Positions 648 to 19,804 of a DNA stretch of 22,190 bases are shown piece after piece (positions within the stretch are counted from its first letter, which is position 1; every line of letters starts with the position of its first letter). Source of the stretch: a virus. A model generated the notes under the pieces. The model saw nothing but the letters and a program-made list of their open reading frames with translations, was not told the origin of the DNA and searched no databases. Position numbers and translations under genes: made by a program. The stretch spans positions 1 to 22,190 of the IMG/VR virus record IMGVR_UViG_3300035180_002381; one strand, written 5' to 3'.

Positions 648-732
648 TGGTGCACGCAGAGGGACTCGAACCCTCAATCCTAAAAGGCGGCAGATTTTAA
701 GTCTGCTGTGTATACCATTCCACCACACGTGC
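648..732 (-). tRNA. tRNA-Leu (anticodon TAA)
   Basis: Cloverleaf with a 7-bp acceptor stem (GCACGTG paired with TGCGTGC, including two G-T pairs). The anticodon arm is GCAGA-CTTAAAA-TCTGC, giving anticodon TAA. There is a long variable region, a T-arm with GGTTCGAGTCC, discriminator A and an encoded CCA. It reads TTA and TTG. It is separated from the other tRNAs of the window by the left-hand protein genes. Confidence 0.95.
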
Positions 733-1726: not shown

Positions 1727-2002
1727 TTAGAAAACAACTTTACTCAACGTCTTCGGGGCAAGTCCAGGTTTCTTATTGTTACCACGTGGTGGCTTATTGA
1801 TCTCCGTGTTCCCCCCCCGAACCTTTATGTTCCCATAGATCTTTGATTCCCCAGAAACACGTGCGTTGTCAAACACCATTGAGTCATCGTAAATCCACGA
1901 ATTTCCAGCTTGGGACAAATTTGCTTTGGATGCAACCCAACCACCAAGATCTCCAACTTTAACATCATTGAAGTCTTTTAGTGCTCGGATTAGATAAAGT
2001 CC
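1727..2002 (-). pseudogene. Truncated second copy of the YdcK-like beta-helix gene
   Basis: The open frame starts right after an in-frame stop at 2003-2005 and has no ATG; the only near-start is a TTG at 1918. Its translation (LYLIRALKDFNDVKVGDLGG, then WVASKANLSQAGNSWIYDD, ending KKPGLAPKTLSKVVF) aligns throughout with the complete copy at 1990-2343. It lacks the first ~13 residues and one 12-residue repeat unit (GNAKVFDNARIS). It is in a different frame from the end of the upstream copy, whose stop overlaps its first codons. It carries a run of eight G (minus strand) near 1811-1818 where the other copy has three. It is most likely a decaying tandem duplicate, though reinitiation or frameshifting from the upstream copy cannot be excluded. 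Confidence 0.7.
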
Positions 2003-2343
2003 TTAAACATTGTAAACGACTTTGCCTTCGGGGCAAGTCCAGGTTTCTTATTGTTAACACGTGGCTTATTGATCTCCGTGTGCCCACAAATCTTCATGCT
2101 CCCATAGATCTTTGATTCCCCAGAAATACGTGCGTTGTCAAAAACCTTTGCGTTCCCAGAAACACGTGCGTTGTCAAACACCATTGAGTCATCGTAAATC
2201 CATGCGTTTCCATCTTGGGACAAATTTGCTTCGGATGCAACCCAACCACCAAGATCTCCGGCTTTAACATCATTGAAATCTTTTAGTGCTCGGATTCGGT
2301 AAAGCCCTTGTTCGTTCTTGATATCTGTCAATTCATATTTCAT
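1990..2343 (-). CDS. YdcK-like beta-helix (hexapeptide-repeat) protein, 117 aa
   Basis: ATG 2343 follows GAAGGA about 9 bases upstream. Residues 1-42 (MKYELTDIKNEQGLYRIRAL, then KDFNDVKAGDLGGWVASEANL) form a lead-in found in bacterial YdcK-type proteins. Residues 43-84 are short repeats (GNAWIYDDSMVFDNARVSGN, then AKVFDNARISGESKIYG) typical of left-handed beta-helices of the hexapeptide or polymer-forming type. The tail is basic and low-complexity (NNKKPGLAP). No acetyltransferase active site is evident, so the role is probably structural or binding. It is first after the promoter at 2403-2432, and its 3' end overlaps the truncated duplicate. Confidence 0.75.
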   Translation of the reverse strand: MKYELTDIKNEQGLYRIRALKDFNDVKAGDLGGWVASEANLSQDGNAWIYDDSMVFDNARVSGNAKVFDNARISGESKIYGSMKICGHTEINKPRVNNKKPGLAPKAKSFTMFKDFI

Positions 2344-2787: not shown

Positions 2788-3501
2788 TTAAAAGTTAATT
2801 TTTCTACCTTTAGTCCATCCTTCAATTAAATATTTTTCTATATCTTCTCTTTTAATTTTCTTACTACGTTTAAGAGATATATTAAAAATCCAACAAGTAT
2901 TATATTGAGAATTTTTATCACCTTGTTGATGATTTATTGCTTTTAACGTATTTTTTCTTTTTTCGTTTGATTCTTGAGAATTTGCAGCAATAATTGCTCT
3001 ATTAGTAATCTCTAACATTAATTTTCGATTAGTTCTCCATAGTCCCTTAAAAGCTTTAGCTCCACCCTTTTTACAGCCATCATTTATTCTTTTTAAAGAA
3101 TCATCTGAGAGTTTATCAAGATTTGCAAATCCTCCAAGCTTTCCTAGATTAAAATAATGTTCCTTGGTCAATTTTTTATTACATCCAACCCAGCTACCAT
3201 CTCCACCCAATGTTAAATTCATACACATTGGATCAACCAACATTTCTTCATTTATTAATTCACGTTCACGTTTCTTTAAACTTTCTCGATCAGAACAAAA
3301 CTCTAAGATCTCTATCTTAAAATTCTCTCGTCCATACTTCTTGATTGAGCGCCATAGTCTTGTACCTGATCCGACGTATCCATCCTCAAGATTATCAGTT
3401 GAGTGCATTCCATAGTAGTACTTTCCATTTACTTGACAAGTTGTCTTGTAGATGAAGTGATATTTCTTTGGGTTAACATACCAATTTTGCTTCTTTTCCA
3501 T
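2788..3501 (-). CDS. GIY-YIG homing endonuclease (Seg-like), 237 aa
   Basis: Residues 16-31 (FIYKTTCQVNGKYYYG) carry the GIY-YIG signature in its Y-Y-G variant. It is followed by GYVGSGTRLWRSIKKYGREN (41-60) with the catalytic-type arginine region, and a Glu cluster (INEEM, 83-87). The segment LNLGKLGG...SNEKRKNTLKAI is typical of NUMOD3-like DNA-binding repeats. The C-terminus GDKNSQYNTCWI plus a basic helix (KKIKREDIEKYLIEGWTKGR) resembles the recognition tail of T4 Seg enzymes. Such enzymes nick or cut a recipient genome so that their gene and its flanks spread. It lies directly downstream of tRNA-Trp. ATG 3501 has a GGAG Shine-Dalgarno held inside a hairpin with an overlapping late promoter (3502-3535), implying late-only translation. 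It is paralogous to the gene at 4475. Confidence 0.92.
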   Translation of the reverse strand: MEKKQNWYVNPKKYHFIYKTTCQVNGKYYYGMHSTDNLEDGYVGSGTRLWRSIKKYGRENFKIEILEFCSDRESLKKRERELINEEMLVDPMCMNLTLGGDGSWVGCNKKLTKEHYFNLGKLGGFANLDKLSDDSLKRINDGCKKGGAKAFKGLWRTNRKLMLEITNRAIIAANSQESNEKRKNTLKAINHQQGDKNSQYNTCWIFNISLKRSKKIKREDIEKYLIEGWTKGRKINF

Positions 3502-3535: not shown

Positions 3536-3553
3536 ACAAAAAAAAGTTACATG

Positions 3554-3625
3554 CAGAGGACGAGGGACTTGAACCCCCAAGACAGGTTTTGGAGACCTGC
3601 ATGTTACCAATTACATCAGTCCTCT
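3554..3625 (-). tRNA. tRNA-Trp (anticodon CCA)
   Basis: The acceptor stem AGAGGAC pairs with GTCCTCT. The anticodon arm CAGGT-CTCCAAA-ACCTG gives anticodon CCA. The T-arm is GGGGGTTCAAGTCCCTC and the discriminator is G. CCA is not encoded (CAT follows), so the 3' end must be added. It lies between the ADP-ribosyltransferase-like fragment and the GIY-YIG gene. Confidence 0.95.
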
Positions 3626-3896: not shown

Positions 3897-4475
3897 TTAT
3901 CTTTTTACCCAACATGTACCAAACTGAGAATTTTTTGAACCTAATTGTGAATCTTTTCTAGCATCAGACATCTTTTGTTTGGTTTTTCCGAGTGTGATTT
4001 GCCAAAAAACTTTGCTTGGGATGAATGTTTCATTTGCAACTTTATTTCTTAAAATATCTCCAACCTTTTTCAGCTTTTCATTTAATTCTTTTCGTTTATC
4101 ACTTCCATTTGGGTGATTTTTAGAAGCAGCAATTCCACCAGTTCTTGCAACAATAATTCGTTGTTCTTCTGTAAGAGTTGCATTCACATAAACCCAACTT
4201 CCTCTACCACCACACGTCAAGTTGTAGACATCATCTCTTCCTACAAACTCTTCATTTACAAGTCGTGCTTCTTCAGCAAACATCTCCTCAGGTGTCTCGT
4301 GAGTACTCAAGATCTCTTTCTTGAAGTTCTCAATGCCATATTTCTTCTTAGCATAACCGAGTTGCTTCCCTGATCCCATGTAGCTGTCATTCATGTCTTT
4401 TGTCATGTGACAGCCGATGTAGATCTTGCCGTTGACCAAATTGGTCAGTTGGTACACTAGATAGTAAATTTTCAT
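3897..4475 (-). CDS. GIY-YIG homing endonuclease, C-terminus lost by a frameshift (192 aa)
   Basis: I start it at ATG 4475 (MKIYYLVYQLTNLVNGKIYI); the frame runs to 4547 but upstream residues are encoded by tRNA-Ser. GIY-YIG signature: residues 5-21 (YLVYQLTNLVNGKIYIG), then YMGSGKQLGYAKKKYGIENF and the Glu-rich FAEEARLVNEEF. The frame ends ...NSQFGTCWVKR at a run of five A (3906-3902). Removing one A restores a frame continuing 39 residues to a stop at 3782 (DKISLKNKLDQLEKFVQERY, then VRGRTM...). That gives about 230 residues, close to the 237 of the paralogue, with the same basic C-terminal helix. The gene is thus a recent frameshift mutant, a slippage-dependent gene, or a sequencing error. 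A CATAAATA late promoter lies 5 bases before the ATG and there is no Shine-Dalgarno. Confidence 0.85.
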   Translation of the reverse strand: MKIYYLVYQLTNLVNGKIYIGCHMTKDMNDSYMGSGKQLGYAKKKYGIENFKKEILSTHETPEEMFAEEARLVNEEFVGRDDVYNLTCGGRGSWVYVNATLTEEQRIIVARTGGIAASKNHPNGSDKRKELNEKLKKVGDILRNKVANETFIPSKVFWQITLGKTKQKMSDARKDSQLGSKNSQFGTCWVKR

Positions 4476-4480
4476 GCAAG

Positions 4481-4488
4481 TATTTATG
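4481..4488 (-). promoter_or_regulatory. Late promoter giving a possibly leaderless mRNA
   Basis: CATAAATA (7 of 8 to TATAAATA) is followed by exactly five bases (CTTGC) and then the ATG at 4475. In T4 the octamer covers about -13 to -6, so transcription would begin at or next to the A of the start codon. Confidence 0.6.
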
Positions 4489-4515
4489 CACGAGTAACTT
4501 TCTAGTGTCCAGATG

Positions 4516-4600
4516 CGGAAGTTGTGAGATTCGAACTCACGGAACATTTCTGTTCGGCAGTTTTCAAGACTGCTGGTTTAAACCACTCACCCAAACTTCC
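4516..4600 (-). tRNA. tRNA-Ser (anticodon TGA)
   Basis: The acceptor stem GGAAGTT pairs with AACTTCC. The anticodon loop CTTGAAA gives anticodon TGA. A long variable arm (GAACAGAAATGTTC) is present as expected for Ser. The T-arm is GTGAGTTCGAATCTCAC and the discriminator G is right for tRNA-Ser. CCA is not encoded. It reads TCA and probably other TCN codons. Confidence 0.95.
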
Positions 4601-5175: not shown

Positions 5176-5259
5176 TGGTGCGAGAGGAGGGACTTGAACC
5201 CTCAATCCTTTCGGCACTGGTTTCTAAGACCAGCGTGTATGCCATTCCACCACTCTCGC
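5176..5259 (-). tRNA. tRNA-Leu (anticodon TAG)
   Basis: The acceptor GCGAGAG pairs with CTCTCGC. The anticodon arm CTGGT-CTTAGAA-ACCAG gives anticodon TAG. It has a variable arm, a T-arm GAGGGTTCAAGTCCCTC, discriminator A and an encoded CCA. It reads CTA and probably other CTN codons. It is the first gene after structured element 1 and the promoter at 5480. Confidence 0.95.
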
Positions 5260-5263
5260 TTTG

Positions 5264-5457
5264 TAAGATAGCTTTGAAAGGTGCCACTGATCTGACTTAA
5301 AGCAGGGATCTAGTTCCTTTTCGCTTTGGTTTGCACCCTCAGCTATCTACTCCTTCTGACTAAGGCGTTTGTTTTACCTGTGTAACAGTCAGATCACACA
5401 GTTTGTCAAACCTTTTATATTTAAGTCAGATCAGTGACACCTTTCAAATCTATCTTA
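5264..5457 (-). ncRNA. Structured element 1: 38-bp stem closing a 118-base loop, promoter-proximal
   Basis: Arms at 5264-5301 and 5420-5457 are complementary over 38 bases with two exceptions; in minus-strand RNA one of these is a G-U pair, which favours transcription from that strand. Its 5' arm begins about 16 bases after the expected start site of the promoter at 5480. Inside are a hairpin CTGTGT/ACACAG and further copies of the arm motif GATCTGACT, allowing alternative pairings. No ATG occurs in the minus-strand sequence, arguing against coding. It shares the string CGAAAAGGAA and the arm core CAGATCAG with element 2. T4 also encodes stable RNAs of unknown role (C and D) in its tRNA region; equivalence is only a suggestion. 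Confidence 0.65.
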
Positions 5458-5479: not shown

Positions 5480-5508
5480 ATTATATCACAATGCTTAAAA
5501 AAGTAAAC
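5480..5508 (-). promoter_or_regulatory. Sigma70-like early promoter for element 1 and tRNA-Leu(TAG)
   Basis: -35 TTTACT at 5502-5507 and -10 TATAAT at 5480-5485 with a 16-bp spacer on the minus strand. It lies 23 bases upstream of the first base of element 1. Confidence 0.75.
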
Positions 5509-5521
5509 TACTTTTATCTCT

Positions 5522-5548
5522 CTTTAGATGCTGGATATTCTTCTTTTT
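5522..5548. repeat. 27-bp direct repeat, left copy (right copy at 5682-5708)
   Basis: A 27-base stretch is identical at 5522-5548 and 5682-5708. The right copy codes for the C-terminal residues of the 50-aa gene. The left copy is noncoding. The two copies bracket tRNA-Tyr. Confidence 0.9.
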
Positions 5549-5558
5549 GTTACACAGG

Positions 5559-5646
5559 TGGGTCTCGGCTAGAATCGAACTGCATGCCTTGAAGGGAGAG
5601 CTTTACAGGCTCCTGACGGTACCAACCATCCTTACTTGCGAGACCC
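5559..5646 (-). tRNA. tRNA-Tyr (anticodon GTA)
   Basis: The acceptor GGGTCTC pairs with GAGACCC. The anticodon arm GGAGC-CTGTAAA-GCTCT gives anticodon GTA. It has the long variable arm expected of bacterial tRNA-Tyr, a T-arm GCAGTTCGATTCTAGC (imperfect outer pair) and discriminator A. CCA is not encoded. It is flanked by the 27-bp direct repeats. Confidence 0.93.
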
Positions 5647-5652
5647 AAAACT

Positions 5653-5805
5653 TTAATAGCTTTCTTTTATGACAGAATATCCTTTAGATGCTGGATATTC
5701 TTCTTTTTTTGCTTTTAGTAGATCATTTGCTTCTTTCACTGTCAAACATTTTTTGTTAAGAAGTGTTTCATAACCCTTCATTACGATCACATACCAGCTT
5801 TTCAT
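5653..5805 (-). CDS. Hypothetical small protein, 50 aa
   Basis: I start at ATG 5805, preceded by GAGGA at about 8 bases; the frame is open to 5844 but that part lacks a ribosome site. The product MKSWYVIVMKGYETLLNKKC, then LTVKEANDLLKAKKEEYPAS, has a first strand, a turn and a helix. This is the layout of many short phage proteins that begin with an aromatic-rich strand. Its last codons are duplicated at 5522-5548. It lies 6 bases upstream of tRNA-Tyr. Function unknown. Confidence 0.7.
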   Translation of the reverse strand: MKSWYVIVMKGYETLLNKKCLTVKEANDLLKAKKEEYPASKGYSVIKESY

Positions 5806-5866: not shown

Positions 5867-5943
5867 TGGTGAGTTGTGTAGGAATCGGAACTAGCCGCTC
5901 TCGGGGTTACAACCCGGGGCCCTACCATTAAGGCGTACAACTC
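5867..5943 (-). tRNA. Degenerate tRNA-like gene, loop reads GTA; identity uncertain
   Basis: A perfect acceptor stem (GAGTTGT / ACAACTC), discriminator A, encoded CCA and a good D-arm (GCCTTAATGGTAGGGC) are visible. The anticodon stem has four G-C pairs around the loop TTGTAAC, which by position reads GTA. However, the variable loop is short, unlike class II tRNA-Tyr. The T-arm (CTAGTTCCGATTCCTAC) is disrupted, as if one base was inserted and one stem side altered. It may be a pseudo-tRNA or a tRNA whose anticodon has shifted. It should not be given an amino acid without aminoacylation data. Confidence 0.6.
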
Positions 5944-5984
5944 ATGAATTGTATCATCTTCCACTGATTCTATGATGGTTTGGG

Positions 5985-6071
5985 CAGAAGTGTGCAGAAT
6001 CGAACTGCAACCCGTTTCCGGGTCGATCCGCTTAGCAGGCGGTCCTGAGTACCAATCTCAGATACACTTCT
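5985..6071 (-). tRNA. tRNA-Ser (anticodon GCT)
   Basis: The acceptor AGAAGTG pairs with CACTTCT. The anticodon arm ACCGC-CTGCTAA-GCGG gives anticodon GCT. A long variable arm (ACCCGGAAACGGGT) is present. The T-arm is TGCAGTTCGATTCTGCA and the discriminator G fits Ser. CCA is not encoded. It reads AGC and AGT. It is the first tRNA downstream of the putative attenuator. Confidence 0.95.
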
Positions 6072-6107
6072 AAAAACTCTAAATTGTTAATGAACATTTT
6101 GCTTCTG

Positions 6108-6138
6108 AAAAAACAAAGGCTTCCTATTCGGAAGCCTT
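6108..6138 (-). terminator. Intrinsic terminator in front of the tRNA cluster
   Basis: In minus-strand RNA AAGGCTTCC (6138-6130), loop GAATA, GGAAGCCTT (6124-6116) form a 9-bp perfect stem followed by TGTTTTTT. It lies 37 bases before tRNA-Ser(GCT). Its 5' arm overlaps a sequence that can instead pair upstream (see 6134-6192), so termination could be conditional. Confidence 0.8.
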
Positions 6139-6192
6139 AGCTGTTTAAATTCTGTATGAACTTACATCATTCAGTCACCAAATAGCTAAGGC
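6134..6192 (-). promoter_or_regulatory. Putative antiterminator helix competing with the terminator
   Basis: GCCTTAGCTATTT (6192-6180, inside the leader ORF) is complementary to AAACAGCTAAGGC (6146-6134) in 12 of 13 positions. The latter contains the first five bases of the terminator's 5' arm, so the two helices cannot coexist. This is the layout of amino-acid-operon attenuators. Confidence 0.65.
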
Positions 6193-6256
6193 CTCGTCCC
6201 CACAAATATGAGGATAGATACGATAAGCTACTAAGATATGAATTAAAGTTTTTCAT
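6167..6256 (-). CDS. Putative attenuator leader peptide rich in Ser, Tyr, Leu, Trp (29 aa)
   Basis: ATG 6256 to TGA 6167. Residues 6-19 read SYLSSLSYLSSYLW; 18 of 29 residues are Ser, Tyr, Leu or Trp. Codons in that run: Ser TCA (twice), AGT, AGC, TCG, TCC; Tyr TAT (three times); Leu CTT, TTA, CTA, TTG; Trp TGG. These include the exact cognates of all six intact tRNAs of the downstream cluster. Residues 22-26 (GLSYL) overlie the antiterminator arm. No Shine-Dalgarno precedes the ATG, but a perfect TATAAATA octamer ends five bases before it, predicting a leaderless late transcript. I infer a sensing peptide: ribosomes stalled in the run would permit antitermination into the tRNA genes. No homologue is known to me. 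Confidence 0.7.
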   Translation of the reverse strand: MKNFNSYLSSLSYLSSYLWGRGLSYLVTE

Positions 6257-6261
6257 GATGA

Positions 6262-6269
6262 TATTTATA
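6262..6269 (-). promoter_or_regulatory. Late promoter for the leader ORF and tRNA cluster
   Basis: Perfect TATAAATA on the minus strand, then TCATC and the ATG at 6256. The 5-base gap is the same as at the GIY-YIG gene at 4475, so transcription would start at the start codon. Confidence 0.65.
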
Positions 6270-6339: not shown

Positions 6340-6527
6340 CAAGTTATACAGATCAGAGGTTAACTCCTACTATTTCCCTGGCCAGCTACTCTAGTAGTTC
6401 TGCCTCTTCAAGACGTCACGGGTCAAGTCTATGGCTTCTTTTAAGAAAGGTTTTCTTATCGTACTGCTACTTCCTTTTCGAAGGGAAGTTTTCTATTCCG
6501 ACGTAACCTCTGATCTGTATATCCTTG
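6340..6527 (-). ncRNA. Structured element 2: 22-bp stem closing about 140 bases, promoter-proximal
   Basis: An 18-base perfect inverted repeat (6345-6362 with 6504-6521) is extended by CAAG/CTTG (6340-6343 with 6524-6527) after a small internal loop. The interior has hairpins such as ACTTCC/GGAAGT (6469-6489) and CTAC/GTAG near 6387. Its 5' end is only a few bases after the expected start of the promoter at 6541. No ATG occurs on the minus strand within it. An 83-codon plus-strand frame crosses it but has no coding character. It shares CGAAAAGGAA and CAGATCAG with element 1. A small hairpin TTGAAC/GTTCAA (6312-6330) follows it. Confidence 0.6.
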
Positions 6528-6540
6528 ATTCAATAAGATC

Positions 6541-6570
6541 ATTATAATATTAGTCAGTACAAAAGTAAAC
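6541..6570 (-). promoter_or_regulatory. Sigma70-like early promoter for element 2 and the tRNA region
   Basis: -35 TTTACT at 6564-6569, -10 TATAAT at 6541-6546, 17-bp spacer on the minus strand. The GTTTAC core is shared with the other early promoters of the window. Confidence 0.75.
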
Positions 6571-12173: not shown

Positions 12174-12340
12174 TTAGTAAAGATTTTTACCACTAGCGCC
12201 TAACAAACCGGTAAGTACTCCCACATCTATAAATTTCAAATTTCCATAGCATGATACTGAACGGATTTACAATCATCGACCTCATCATCAGTAATGACGC
12301 GAATCCAAGGGCTAGCTCTTCTCGGAGGTAGTGTTGACAT
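12174..12340 (-). pseudogene. Frameshifted small ORF between the membrane-protein gene and rIIA
   Basis: ATG 12340 opens a 34-codon frame (MSTLPPRRASPWIRVITDDE, then VDDCKSVQYHAMEI, stop 12236). In another frame the sequence goes on as YGNLKFIDVGVLTGLLGASG then KNLY, stopping at 12174. Joining after residue 31 (a one-base change near 12249) gives a plausible 55-residue protein with a hydrophobic C-terminal strand. There is no good Shine-Dalgarno. I infer a small gene damaged by a one-base loss; either half might also be chance. Confidence 0.4.
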
Positions 12341-12365
12341 AAGTCCAACTCGACGGCATTATATC

Positions 12366-12620
12366 TTAAGATTTATTAAAAGCGTCTTTATTCTGTAAGC
12401 ATGCAATTATACGGACTATAGTTTGAAATACAATATATCCCATAAATAGGCTGAGAAGAGCAAACAGTCCTTTGCACAATAAGATAGTTTCAGGAAGCAT
12501 AATTGAGTATACTACTCCCACCATACCCATAATTATCGAGATTAGCGAAAAACATAGAACAAGGAGCCTGGATCTCAGAGACTCACGTGAGAAGCGAGCC
12601 ATTATAATTTCATCAGCCAT
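12366..12620 (-). CDS. Small membrane protein with two transmembrane helices, 84 aa
   Basis: I start at ATG 12620 (MADEIIMARFSRESLRSRLL), preceded by AGAG at about 4 bases; ATG 12644 would add eight residues. Two hydrophobic helices lie at about residues 20-42 (VLCFSLISIIMGMVGVVYSI) and 48-72 (LLCKGLFALLSLFMGYIVFQ), with a positive N-terminus that should stay cytoplasmic, so both ends would be inside. Small early membrane proteins next to rII genes in T-even phages include exclusion factors (e.g. imm), but there is no sequence basis to equate them. Its start region is tandemly duplicated (12621-12662). Confidence 0.7.
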   Translation of the reverse strand: MADEIIMARFSRESLRSRLLVLCFSLISIIMGMVGVVYSIMLPETILLCKGLFALLSLFMGYIVFQTIVRIIACLQNKDAFNKS

Positions 12621-12662
12621 TATACTCTTAAGATAATTAACCATCCGCCATTATACTCCAAC
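12612..12662. repeat. Tandem duplication of a start-codon region, leaving a 4-codon minicistron
   Basis: Two copies of TTAATTAT-N7-AGTATAATGGC-x-GATG stand about 31 bases apart on the minus strand. The upstream copy codes for MADG and a stop (12651-12637). The downstream copy starts the membrane protein with MADE. Each copy carries its own GAG-like ribosome site, and TATAAT could also act as a -10. A GTTTACT -35-like box is at 12685-12691. Confidence 0.6.
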
Positions 12663-12706
12663 ATAATTAACTATAATGATTAAAAGTAAACAAATTTTTT
12701 ATTAAT

Positions 12707-12964
12707 TTAGTAAAGATTTTCACTAAATAGTTTACCTTCATCTCCACCTACTCGACGTATGATCTGTTCTGCTTCCACCGCGACGTCATACGCTTCTTCT
12801 CGAGTCATGAAAAAACCAAATTGATCAATGAAGCCCTGTTCTGCACCATCCCAATCGTCAGTTGATGACTCAATTTGATTACACATGATGCTGTCAAAGT
12901 GTCTAGCTCCACAGATAATAAGCTTACTTTGATTTCGTATTGCTGCACAGACAACTTTTCTCAT
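12707..12964 (-). CDS. Conserved-type phage protein, unknown function, 85 aa
   Basis: Start ATG 12964 (MRKVVCAAIRNQSKLIICGA) with GGA 5 bases upstream; ATG 12970 (two residues longer) overlaps the preceding stop as ATGA. The sequence ends ...EQGFIDQFGFFMTREEAYDV, then AVEAEQIIRRVGGDEGKLFS ENLY. This arrangement (A-A-I-R, G-x-R-H-F-D, E-Q-G-F-I-D-Q-F, G-G-D-E-x-x-L-x-S-E-x-L-Y) is seen in many phage small proteins of unknown role. It is the last gene of the SLOG/HD/ATP-grasp operon. Confidence 0.8.
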   Translation of the reverse strand: MRKVVCAAIRNQSKLIICGARHFDSIMCNQIESSTDDWDGAEQGFIDQFGFFMTREEAYDVAVEAEQIIRRVGGDEGKLFSENLY

Positions 12965-12966
12965 GA

Positions 12967-13755
12967 TCATCCATTATGATGGTATTTGTAAAGAGCCTTA
13001 AAAATAACTTTAATGTCATGTCCATACATACCACTTGAATTGATACAGTTGAATTCGATCACCTTAAGCTCATCATTTACTAGAGCAAGATCCATCACAC
13101 AACAAGGATCAGGTAACCATTTGTCAGCAAGCTCTTGAGCTTCTTGAATCAACTCAACATCAGTTTCATGATGTTTGACTAGTTTACCGCGAATTCGATA
13201 CATAGATCCGTCAATGATCTTTCCATCAATTACAAACCAGCGCCACTCAGCCAAGATCAGTTTTGGTTTTGCTAAGACAACCATCATGTCTTCAGTTACG
13301 TTGTATGTACCTGAAGAGTTACAGCTTACCGCATCAGTTAACCAATCAACACACTCTTTAGCTTCGATCACTTGACCTGAAAATTGTTTCAAATCTTCGG
13401 ACGGGCGAATAAACCATTGTTCATGTTGTTCTTCATCACTTAAAAACTTGATAGCTTCACTGACTGTAAAGATATGCTCATCATTGAGCATGTCTCTACG
13501 ATGTTCTACTGCTGCTTGATAGTTGAAAGTTGAAAGATCAAAGTGAAGACCTTTCCAACCTAGCTCTTTACAGACCGTAGTTAGCAACGTTGATCCATAA
13601 GGGATAAAGTCAGTACCTGTAAGTTCATTATCTGAAATGATCTCATGAGTAAACGGGATCAAGCTTACAAACTTATGAGGGATTGTCTTGACTGCGTTCT
13701 TGATCAGCATCAATTGATCTTCATTTATAAGATTTTGTTGAATCACAAATTCCAT
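12967..13755 (-). CDS. ATP-grasp domain protein (R2K-clade-like), 262 aa
   Basis: The N-terminal half ends in FIRPSEDLKQFSGQVI (115-130), the central ATP-grasp strand. It is followed by LILAEWRWFVIDGKIIDGSM (167-186; E170, R172), a KLVKHHETD turn, and the metal-binding end MDLALVNDELKVIEFNCINS then SGMY (221-244; D222, E234, N236). This matches the R2K/DUF4343 ATP-grasp group common in phages and conflict systems. ATP-grasp enzymes ligate a carboxylate, through acyl phosphate, to an amine or thiol; the substrate here is unknown. It starts one base inside the previous stop (TAATG), so it is coupled. R2K enzymes are thought to modify peptides or RNA-linked substrates. Confidence 0.82.
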   Translation of the reverse strand: MEFVIQQNLINEDQLMLIKNAVKTIPHKFVSLIPFTHEIISDNELTGTDFIPYGSTLLTTVCKELGWKGLHFDLSTFNYQAAVEHRRDMLNDEHIFTVSEAIKFLSDEEQHEQWFIRPSEDLKQFSGQVIEAKECVDWLTDAVSCNSSGTYNVTEDMMVVLAKPKLILAEWRWFVIDGKIIDGSMYRIRGKLVKHHETDVELIQEAQELADKWLPDPCCVMDLALVNDELKVIEFNCINSSGMYGHDIKVIFKALYKYHHNG

Positions 13756-13967
13756 TATGCAGAAAATCCATTTTGTCGCACAATCAAGTCAAGAATTTCT
13801 TGAGCGTTCACTAACTCATAATCTTCATCATAGACAATTGAAAGTAGTGCAGCAATAGATCCTTGAGAGATCATCGTTTCACTTTTTACGTCATATAATT
13901 GTCCTTGAGCTACGTTCCGCCCAAATATGTACTCAAACCGAGGATATCTAATTTCTACTTTTGTCAT
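13755..13967 (-). CDS. Hypothetical small protein, 70 aa
   Basis: The product begins MTKVEIRYPRFEYIFGRNVA and ends LVNAQEILDLIVRQNGFSA. It looks like a small alpha/beta protein. No signature is visible. It is immediately between the HD and ATP-grasp genes, with one base before it and a 1-base overlap after it, so it is made with both. It could be an accessory subunit; function unknown. Confidence 0.75.
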   Translation of the reverse strand: MTKVEIRYPRFEYIFGRNVAQGQLYDVKSETMISQGSIAALLSIVYDEDYELVNAQEILDLIVRQNGFSA

Positions 13968-13968
13968 A

Positions 13969-14721
13969 TTAACTTTCCAAAATTTTCTTAAGGTGAAACT
14001 TACAATTTTCCCAACCTCTTACTTCTGCTTTCTTAATTGCCCACTCAGTTTCCCAAGTAATACCGTCTAAAAAAACTATCATCTTGTCTCTGAAATCATG
14101 TTGATCTGTAATCTTCAGTTCAGTCATGAGACCTAGATATTGACGCTTTAGTATATCATCGTTTTCTTCATAGGCTTGCATCAAGTCAGCATCTCGAATG
14201 ATCATCTCATGCATCAATGTAGGCTTTTTAGTGTACGGATATTGTGTGATCATGATCGTTTCTTTTGCAACCTGTAGCTCTTCAGTTGTCAGTTCCAATA
14301 GATTAAATCTTGCTGATTTTTGAGCAATCTCAAGCCCTTGTAGTGCAGTTTCGATGTTATACACATCAGAAAACTCACCCCCTGAGTGAGCATAATCATG
14401 AAAGAGTCCTCCAGCACACATCCCACGCACTACTCCCCTGGGCAACTTGATATAGTATGATCCCTCATAGCAGTTAAGAAAAGTGCTATAACTATGGTAT
14501 TGATTGTGATAAGGGAGAGAACGAGAAGGATTAAAATGTTCAAAAACTTCAAAAAAAGCTCCAAGGTTCAAACGTTCAACAATTGACTTTACTCCCCACT
14601 TACCTAGTTGTGCTAGGTGATATGCTTTAGTGGCTTTAAAGATCGCTAGATCTTCATCCATCACTTCGTCTATGGTCATTGATGCCCAAGTGTTGGTTTC
14701 AAGCCTACCGCGAAAATACAT
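13969..14721 (-). CDS. HD-domain phosphohydrolase, PDEase-like motifs, 250 aa
   Basis: I use ATG 14721 (MYFRGRLETNTWASMTIDEV), which has AAGGA 5 bases upstream; the longer frame overlaps the SLOG gene. Metal-site motifs are in order: YHNQYH (71-76), GLFHDYAHSGG (105-115; H108, D109, H112), N122 and RDADL (176-180). The H-N-x-x-H, H-D-x-x-H, N, D pattern is closest to class I cyclic-nucleotide phosphodiesterases within the HD superfamily. It is more distant from dNTPase or SpoT types. It therefore likely cleaves a nucleotide phosphodiester or phosphate. Co-location with SLOG and ATP-grasp genes suggests a nucleotide-signal or counter-defence role. The substrate is not determined. Confidence 0.82.
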   Translation of the reverse strand: MYFRGRLETNTWASMTIDEVMDEDLAIFKATKAYHLAQLGKWGVKSIVERLNLGAFFEVFEHFNPSRSLPYHNQYHSYSTFLNCYEGSYYIKLPRGVVRGMCAGGLFHDYAHSGGEFSDVYNIETALQGLEIAQKSARFNLLELTTEELQVAKETIMITQYPYTKKPTLMHEMIIRDADLMQAYEENDDILKRQYLGLMTELKITDQHDFRDKMIVFLDGITWETEWAIKKAEVRGWENCKFHLKKILES

Positions 14722-18100: not shown

Positions 18101-19804
18101 TCAGAACACGATCCTTAACTTAAACCAGTCTGGTAGTTTATTCTTCCACTGATCATAAAAATATACAAAGTTTTTGTCAAAAATGTAAGTTATTGACGTA
18201 TCTGATTCATGCCGTGTAGATCTTCCTGAGGCTTGCAAGATGTTAAGCCACATACGATTTGCATACCATTCACTGTCAATCTTTGACTTTATGTTAACTC
18301 TAACGTCACCAAGGTTAGCCCAGGGTAATTTAATGATGACTTGAAATTCTGATAAGTCATCATACAAGTCAACACCTTCCATCATTGAAGGTGACAACAA
18401 AACAGATGAAAACTTTACACCTGTTTGTTCATGAATTGCTAACAGCTCATCATTCTTATAACGTTTAGGGAATCTGTTATTTCCTAGATTTGCATTTTTG
18501 AGTTCATCCATGTCACGACAAAGCAAGCGTTCTTGGCTCTTCTTGTTAACACGCTGAAAGATCTCTTTTTGTAAGTTATACGTGACACAGTGAATTATGC
18601 CACGTTGGTTCTGATGTATATTCAAAATGTCATCAATCAAACCACCGATCTTCTTTACATTTTGTTCAAAACTGTCTTTGCTGAGCTTGATGACAGGCAT
18701 CACGATCACAGGAGACTTTTTAGGGTCAAAGGGTGAATCAGTCTCAATAAAGAAACAGTCAGAATCTTCAATCCCAATCTCTTTACAAAATTGTGATTTT
18801 GTACCTAAGGTGGCAGACAAGAACACGAACTTGTCAGCAAGTTTTCCAAAGTACTCATGAAACAAGAAGTCACCGTAGATCGGAGCTAACTTTAGAACGT
18901 TCTTTTCTGGATCCTTAGACACGATCCATCGTTCAGCAAGCTCTTCTGGATTAGTATGAGTATTAAAAAAAATCTTAAGCGGCTGAATTGCTTTATCAAG
19001 TTGGTAGATCTTAGTGTTTAACTTCTTCACCTTTTCACCTACCTTCTCGGTAAATCCACGAGCCCACTGTTTAGCATCAAGACCTACAAGTTTAGCTTGT
19101 GGGAATTCTTCTTCGAGCTTTGCTGCAAGCTCAGTAGCTTTGTGTATCAAGATACCTTGAATCTCAATTATCTTGAAATAATCTTCTTCAGGCCTACCGG
19201 TGAACTTTATAGCTTGAGTCGCGACTCCGAAGTCAGCATGATATTTCTCAGGGTCAATGTTTGATTCAGCAAATGAAACTAAATGATTCTCAAGATTGTG
19301 AGCTTCATCAATGATCAAGACCTCACGTTTTATCCACGGTGAATCATCATTTGCAAATCCACAGTGAGTGCTATAAAGCATGTACACTGGGTTGGTAATC
19401 ATTGCCTTTGATGCTAGCGCGATCTTCTTCTGAGTATAATAAGCACAAGTTCCTTCATTGATACAAACACGCAGCAAACTAGAATTTGCTGAACATGGCG
19501 CTGAATCTACTGTAAAGTTTGGGTTCAGGTTACAAGTATAGTTTCCTCGGCCCTTTAGGTTGATCAGTTTATCCCATGACTTGATGTACTGATCTTGTAA
19601 TTGAAGATTAGAGGTGAGAACGTAAGCATTTTTACAGCTGTCAGCAATAGCGGTAGCAATGTAAGTCTTACCTACACCAGTAGGGAGACTTAGGGCAAAA
19701 TACTTATAGTCATCCCACTTTTTATGAAGGTTTTCTATTACGTCTAATTGCTGAGGTCTTGCCTTGATGTTATGTTCTTCAAAGAACTTGATAGGATGTT
19801 GCAC
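18101..19804 (-). CDS. DinG-like superfamily 2 helicase, 567 aa
   Basis: The start is GTG 19804 with AGGAG 7 bases upstream. Walker A SLPTGVGKT (39-47), DEAHN Walker B (166-170) and a C-terminal motif VI QASGRSTRH (524-532) define an SF2 DNA helicase of the XPD/DinG type. C91, C104, C114 and C120 lie between motifs Ia and II, where DinG/XPD carry their 4Fe-4S cluster (four Cys present). It would translocate 5'-3' on single-stranded DNA, unwinding D-loops, R-loops or forks. It is not the T4 Dda or UvsW. It stands alone between the nucleotide-metabolism operon and the 170-aa gene. Confidence 0.9.
   Translation of the reverse strand: MQHPIKFFEEHNIKARPQQLDVIENLHKKWDDYKYFALSLPTGVGKTYIATAIADSCKNAYVLTSNLQLQDQYIKSWDKLINLKGRGNYTCNLNPNFTVDSAPCSANSSLLRVCINEGTCAYYTQKKIALASKAMITNPVYMLYSTHCGFANDDSPWIKREVLIIDEAHNLENHLVSFAESNIDPEKYHADFGVATQAIKFTGRPEEDYFKIIEIQGILIHKATELAAKLEEEFPQAKLVGLDAKQWARGFTEKVGEKVKKLNTKIYQLDKAIQPLKIFFNTHTNPEELAERWIVSKDPEKNVLKLAPIYGDFLFHEYFGKLADKFVFLSATLGTKSQFCKEIGIEDSDCFFIETDSPFDPKKSPVIVMPVIKLSKDSFEQNVKKIGGLIDDILNIHQNQRGIIHCVTYNLQKEIFQRVNKKSQERLLCRDMDELKNANLGNNRFPKRYKNDELLAIHEQTGVKFSSVLLSPSMMEGVDLYDDLSEFQVIIKLPWANLGDVRVNIKSKIDSEWYANRMWLNILQASGRSTRHESDTSITYIFDKNFVYFYDQWKNKLPDWFKLRIVF

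Follow-up and report, generated by a model that had tools for sequence, protein, structure and literature searches.

A promoter-proximal hairpin and a predicted attenuator at the head of a Ser/Leu/Tyr/Trp tRNA operon in jumbo phages

Ribosome-mediated attenuators of amino acid operons (trp, his, leu, phe, thr, and ilv) carry a short ORF with a run of regulatory codons and a terminator before the first gene, and the position of the ribosome on this ORF picks between the terminator and an antiterminator that overlaps its 5' arm. The genes downstream encode biosynthetic enzymes. T-box riboswitches likewise sense charged versus uncharged tRNA and switch a terminator, but they bind the tRNA directly and without a leader ORF. 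Long stems and boxA-like sequences are found on the untranslated stable-RNA transcripts of rRNA operons, and the 5' stabilizing hairpins of bacterial mRNAs (ompA type) place their stem at the extreme 5' end of the transcript. Among phages, T4 has a homing endonuclease gene and additional small RNAs within its tRNA cluster. It has long been asked why phages carry tRNAs; these tRNAs have been proposed as replacements for tRNAs destroyed by host defenses (PMC10264068), and phage tRNA-Tyr evades the retron-Eco7 effectors that deplete this tRNA (PMC11555353). The open-licence papers that we searched hold no description of attenuation or leader peptides in connection with phage tRNA genes.

Here we describe, by computational analysis, a tRNA operon in a 22,190-nt stretch of phage DNA (the window) together with its leader region (Table 1). 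The rIIA and rIIB proteins of the window are only distantly related to the versions of GenBank phages, and relatives were found through protein alignments of rIIB and the neighboring HNH protein; searches via the HNH, rIIA, or 107-aa proteins alone gave nothing usable. The five related contigs (L014, 345 kb; L015, 80 kb; L016, 389 kb; L094, 55 kb; L096, 360 kb) encode rIIB or HNH proteins 46% to 60% identical to those of the window, and all five have a tRNA operon after the rIIB/HNH block. The window and these related contigs come from jumbo phages. Beside rIIB, L015 also encodes a 706-aa protein with the look of a PAS-PAS-GGDEF-EAL cyclic-di-GMP enzyme (12327-14447, +), which is either a phage-carried signaling gene or the sign of a chimeric contig.

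Table 1. Features of the tRNA operon and its leader region in the window
Feature	Position	Strand	Basis or remark
Early promoter TTTACT-17-TATAAT	6541-6569	-	expected start near 6534
Element 2 hairpin, 18-bp perfect stem plus CAAG/CTTG, 141-nt interior	6340-6527	-	folding, inverted-repeat search
TATAAATA, T4-late-promoter-like, 5 nt before leader ATG	6262-6269	-	putative promoter
Leader ORF MKNFNSYLSSLSYLSSYLWGRGLSYLVTE then stop, no Shine-Dalgarno	6167-6256	-	counterparts in five related contigs
Antiterminator strand A, codons 21-25 of leader ORF	6183-6196	-	duplex with B
Strand B, partner of A and terminator 5' arm	6130-6142	-	folding
Intrinsic terminator AAGGCTTCC-GAATA-GGAAGCCTT then TGTTTTTT	6108-6138	-	sequence
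boxA-like TGTTCATTAACAATTT, 1 mismatch to TGYTCTTTAACAATTT	6081-6096	-	between terminator and first tRNA
tRNA-Ser (GCU), first of operon	5981-6072	-	tRNA search
tRNA-Tyr (GUA), low scoring	5867-5943	-	Rfam tRNA 24.4 bits, below 29-bit cut-off
tRNA-Tyr-like RNA, altered D arm	5557-5647	-	conserved in 6/6 contigs
Second early promoter TTTACT-16-TATAAT	5480-5507	-	sequence
Element 1 hairpin, 38-nt arms 95% complementary, 118-nt interior	5264-5457	-	folding, inverted-repeat search
tRNA-Leu (UAG)	5176-5259	-	tRNA search
tRNA-Ser (UGA)	4515-4600	-	tRNA search
tRNA-Trp (CCA)	3553-3625	-	tRNA search
tRNA-Leu (UAA)	648-732	-	tRNA search

Hairpins behind the early promoters

A preliminary description of this DNA had noticed a hairpin, element 2, with an 18-bp stem plus 4 bp around some 140 ATG-free bases directly behind a promoter at 6541, and this anatomy is borne out. 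The arms (6345-6362 and 6504-6521) pair at 18 of 18 positions and enclose 141 nt that lack an ATG on the minus strand, 4 further base pairs join the ends (6524-6527 with 6340-6343), and a TTTACT-17-TATAAT promoter ends at 6541, so that the RNA is expected to start around 7 nt before the stem. The same TTTACT/TATAAT motif also heads other early transcripts of the clade. The stem is the longest perfect inverted repeat of the window (span up to 300 nt), and 200 dinucleotide shuffles of the window gave a perfect repeat of 17 once and of 18 never. As a whole, element 2 folds with -56 kcal/mol (z = -3.9) but its interior alone has no excess structure compared to shuffles (z = +1.2), so the excess stability resides entirely in the closing stem. 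An identical element 2 is present on a second contig of the same virus and none was found in the related phage contigs; blastn searches of GenBank phages with element 2 or element 1 returned only chance hits. Rfam covariance models assigned neither element to a family, with only tRNA reaching the gathering score. Chance matches that appeared at a relaxed threshold were discarded, including a weak Phe_leader match (E 1.1) that corresponds to the terminator of the attenuator described below.

Element 1, behind the second early promoter inside the operon, had been proposed as a sibling of element 2 within a dedicated class of structured RNAs. Its arms (5264-5301 and 5420-5457) include the second longest perfect repeat of the window (17 bp), and a boxA-core-like TGTTCTTTAA lies just before it (5470-5461). 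Both elements do share CGAAAAGGAA (ungapped match, p about 0.04), in each case followed by [CG]TAG, as well as CAGATCAG, but CGAAAAGGAA is near the 3' arm of element 1 and near the 5' arm of element 2 while CAGATCAG occupies opposite arms, and these permuted positions leave no collinearity between them. A gapped local alignment did no better than shuffles (p 0.46), though this is a weak test under its permissive, near-linear scoring, for which reason the ungapped test was added. In the covariance comparison that the preliminary description had called for, a model built from element 2 missed element 1 under default filters; with filters off, the proper strand of element 1 scored 18.1 bits but the opposite strand 17.2 bits, and the scores of unrelated hairpins in L094 (23.1 and 18.9 bits on the two strands) and L015 (15.5 and 11.7 bits) were similar or higher. 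The match to element 1 means "a long hairpin" and nothing more, which makes this comparison uninformative. The interior of element 1 is also at shuffle level (z = -1.3). A single RNA family is thus largely refuted and, in our view, highly improbable, and the proposed dedicated class is not supported either, given unstructured interiors, no Rfam match, and no counterpart in related phages. As an RNA class, element 2 is ordinary, i.e., a 5' leader hairpin.

What recurs is the position of such stems. All 5 perfect stems of at least 17 bp in the window and in contigs G008 (of L094) and G002 (of L015) begin 14 to 51 nt after TTTACT...TATAAT promoters, and 4 of them lead into a tRNA operon (elements 1 and 2, L015 18850-18924, and L094 14773-14827) while the fifth stands before a gene for a small protein. 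The stems are unrelated in sequence and have loops of 118, 141, 41, 11, and 7 nt. By our own tally, a stem of at least 17 bp follows 4 of the 8 promoters of tRNA operons and 1 of about 58 other promoters (Fisher p 5e-4), and no long stem was seen after 34 further early promoters, mostly of protein genes, in three relatives. The stem is dispensable, since the operon promoters of L014, L016, and L096 do without it. In L094, a 17-bp perfect hairpin (12664-12704, +) belongs to the 5' leader of a gene for a small zinc-ribbon-like protein, which shows that stems close to a promoter also occur outside tRNA operons. We therefore best see the recurrent trait as the stem's position after the promoter, with pairing and not sequence being what matters, and element 2 itself as a structural leader at the 5' end of an early transcript, which continues into the Ser/Leu/Tyr/Trp tRNA operon.

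Of the functions suggested earlier, leader protection and a processing platform remain our best guess for the stem, whose likely roles would be 5' protection of a mostly untranslated transcript and cutting by RNase III. Both elements offer the near-perfect duplex of about 20 bp or more that suits this enzyme (18 + 4 bp in element 2 and 38-nt arms at 95% in element 1). Stem length, the stable RNAs rnaC and rnaD encoded by the T4 tRNA cluster, and interiors of more than 100 nt that exceed the need of a simple hairpin would also fit a model in which RNase III excises element 2, and likewise element 1, to give a stable small RNA with an interior that acts in trans, for example as a sponge or defense decoy. 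We consider this unlikely, because the interiors fold no better than shuffles, have no homologue in GenBank phages or relatives, and shrink to 11 nt and 41 nt at the same place in relatives. There is an even smaller chance that the inverted repeats act as DNA, be it as site of a dimeric regulator, recombination remnant, or MITE-like insertion: as DNA the arms are nearly perfect, and they differ in sequence between elements and phages, but a single protein site would hardly have spacers as long as 7 to 141 nt, every stem is found behind a promoter and oriented with the transcript, one of the two arm mismatches of element 1 can pair as G-U, though only in the minus-strand RNA, and no target duplication was seen by eye.

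Leader ORFs, alternative pairings, and the tRNAs downstream

Element 2 does head the tRNA transcript as had been proposed, but the preliminary description overlooked a leader ORF and an intrinsic terminator (6138-6116) that sit on the same strand between the hairpin and the first tRNA; a predicted antiterminator lies there as well. Counterparts of the leader are encoded in L014 (MKTTSSLYLSLLSSSYLWTKSLSDCEKPGI), L015 (MKNFVSLLSLSYWSLSYLGQGLDVPTEGWDL), L016 (MTNVLSLSLSWSLSSYLGERP), L094 (MKTTLLSYLSLLLSSSYWLTMSPSCLEGINKV), and L096 (MNTFNISLLSSSLLSYSLYSELRGVGLKVDM), and all six leaders contain an unbroken run of 13 to 15 Ser/Leu/Tyr/Trp residues that is encoded by many different codons and has a chance of about 1e-8 per given position (background frequency 0.27). 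Each leader is followed by a terminator and then by tRNAs, with the terminators of L015 and L094 seen in folds and sequence. Just behind the codon run, strand A varies (CCUUAGC, CCUUGAU, GGCCCUAG, GCCCUAGCU, and others), while strand B ends 119 to 143 nt from the ATG in all six contigs. The A:B duplex of the window (-21.0 kcal/mol) was matched by none of 500 shuffles, and p is at most 0.004 in five contigs and 0.042 in L096; as its letters differ among contigs yet beat shuffles, the pairing has been kept by changes on both sides.

When nascent RNA was folded to the end of B, the probability of B pairing upstream was 0.61 to 0.97 with a ribosome stalled in the codon run and 0.03 to 0.42 with a ribosome at the stop codon. 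Equilibrium folding, which favors the terminator of L094 whatever the state and lets L016 switch in part only, is misleading for these two contigs and was replaced by nascent-RNA folding; its failure there means that the switch must be kinetic. The equilibrium-fold result for L096 is an artefact of a palindromic arm, and a default antitermination of the early transcript (0.70 vs 0.02) appeared in the window only and is not relied on.

The tRNAs of the operons correspond to the residues of the leaders. Ser, Leu, and Tyr tRNAs, which form class II in bacteria and have a long variable arm, make up together with tRNA-Trp 49 of the 50 operon tRNAs with anticodons readable by ARAGORN across the six operons, the exception being one tRNA with a Met anticodon in L096. 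Other clusters of two relatives hold next to none of these four kinds (0 of 37 and 1 of 39; 1 of 76 together), and the mixed tRNA clusters of L098-L100, L105-L109, XacN1, and SCTP-2 showed no Ser/Leu/Tyr/Trp leader ahead of them. The leader of L096 has no Trp codon, and ARAGORN found no tRNA-Trp in the L096 operon even when this was extended into L154.

With its dense codon run, a terminator before the first gene, an overlapping antiterminator, and matching tRNAs downstream, the region from 6256 to 6108 looks like a ribosome-mediated transcription attenuator of trp-type anatomy. An ordinary Shine-Dalgarno sequence, usual but not required for such attenuators, is absent. This absence, together with the fact that peptides rich in Leu, Ser, Tyr, and Trp can be membrane-active, might instead point to a genuine small hydrophobic peptide or a chance ORF, with the terminator merely ending the early transcript. 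We give this reading little credence: the peptides do not line up residue for residue and have 3 invariant columns, but all six contigs keep the codon run, the place of A just behind it, and the spacing from ATG to B, and the leader amino acids track the operon tRNAs including the loss of Trp in L096.

Shine-Dalgarno energies of the six leaders range from -0.5 to +1.6 kcal/mol as opposed to about -6 to -8.5 kcal/mol for eight ordinary genes of the window, so translation of an attenuator leader of this kind must be leaderless or otherwise unusual. In five of the six contigs (window, L014, L015, L094, and L096), TATAAATA lies 5 to 8 nt before the leader ATG, while L016 has an early promoter at that distance. 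These motifs suggest that the sensed transcript is leaderless and probably late, and that it is the early transcript that carries element 2. Antitermination, the third function previously suggested for element 2, would be a property of its neighborhood (the attenuator and the boxA-like sequence at 6096-6081) and not of the hairpin. Versions of boxA with 3 mismatches occupy the same place in L014, L016, and L094, and transcription past the attenuator may thus use NusB/S10 antitermination.

As one explanation of the locus, it is probable that element 2 forms the 5' leader of the early transcript and that the predicted attenuator controls the Ser/Leu/Tyr/Trp tRNA operon. At the 5' end, the stem would guard this largely untranslated transcript against 5'-end-dependent decay; RNase III could also cut the stem, which would detach the leader. 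A ribosome on the leader would then meet the run of 13 to 15 Ser/Leu/Tyr/Trp codons. With plentiful charged tRNAs of these kinds it would reach the stop codon and cover A, B would form the terminator, and no tRNAs would be made; with scarce charged tRNAs it would stall, A would pair with B in place of the terminator, and the polymerase would enter the genes for those same tRNAs. We infer that such stalling and switching take place in the cell, presumably for the purpose of replacing tRNAs destroyed or exhausted during infection.

Accessory genes of the operons and a possible role in counter-defense

Some of the operon content speaks against the explanation given above: besides tRNAs, the operons carry homing-endonuclease genes, the operon of the window has an internal promoter at element 1, and that of L096 has the one Met-anticodon tRNA. 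Homing-endonuclease-like genes (GIY-YIG and HNH) lie inside the operons at 2788-3501 (-) and 3897-4547 (-) of the window, about 15432-15983 of L094, and 19809-20491 of L015; some are preceded by TATAAATA, and their siting within the operon is as for segB in T4. Adjacent duplicated gene fragments of the window (1751-2004 and 2026-2309) are about 79% identical, and one of them is apparently truncated. The 345-kb phage contig encodes a permuted tmRNA according to ARAGORN (L103 556-938, -; tag ANDANGALALAA) at 6 to 7 kb from its Ser/Leu/Tyr/Trp tRNA operon.

All six contigs also encode a tRNA-Tyr-like RNA that default ARAGORN does not report (L014 15931-16024 and 16864-16958, L015 19462-19557, L016 19861-19956, L094 15287-15383, and L096 12648-12740 besides the window). 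It has GUA in the anticodon loop, an intact T loop, a mostly kept CCA end, and a D arm with 6 bp and a loop of 4 nt, and 16 of 29 predicted pairs are changed on both sides. This RNA is possibly a decoy for a defense that cleaves tRNA-Tyr or a specialized tRNA. In the window its gene is bracketed by a perfect 27-bp direct repeat (5522-5548 and 5682-5708), the trace of a duplication or insertion. Two relatives, L015 (around 18995-19077, +) and L094 (14508-14582, +), have further tRNA-like RNAs, with anticodon arms that are abnormal, between the early promoter and the leader.

Tentatively, and with somewhat less conviction than we hold for the attenuator and leader themselves, we propose that the locus is an inducible counter-defense. 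The phages would have gathered all class II tRNAs (Ser, Leu, and Tyr) and tRNA-Trp in an operon of their own whose leader measures the loss of just these tRNAs, e.g., to anticodon nucleases of the host or to effectors that degrade tRNA, and lets replacements be made when needed, with other tRNAs outside this control and promoter-proximal stems keeping the early transcript ready. If true, the self-reading operon shows which tRNAs a phage expects to lose, and the question of supply versus defense becomes testable with one reporter. The attenuator is the more important find, while element 2 alone is of modest interest and marks the operon head.

Comparison with known systems

A tRNA operon switch that senses its own Ser/Leu/Tyr/Trp products looks undescribed and, if true, would be the first case that we know of in which tRNA genes are under the control of a ribosome-mediated attenuator. 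The phage leaders share ORF, codon run, terminator position, and overlapping antiterminator with the attenuators of amino acid operons, but they differ in having tRNA genes downstream instead of biosynthetic enzymes, in sensing four amino acids together, in being phage-borne, and in lacking a Shine-Dalgarno sequence, with translation probably leaderless from the late-promoter-like TATAAATA. Like T-box riboswitches they would read charged versus uncharged tRNA and switch a terminator, yet they would do so via a leader ORF, and no Rfam T-box match was found here. Compared to rRNA operon leaders, whose untranslated stable-RNA transcripts likewise have long stems and boxA-like sequences, the stems here enclose leader only and no mature stable RNA, and the boxA is putative. 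The combination of phage tRNAs with a homing endonuclease and additional small RNAs is as in the T4 tRNA cluster, but T4 rnaC and rnaD lie at the 3' end of that cluster and lack a long perfect closing stem, and this difference in structure led us to reject them as homologues of the elements described here. With ompA-type hairpins, finally, element 2 shares a stem at the extreme 5' end, though its perfect stem is much longer, its loop is large, and its stabilizing role is putative.
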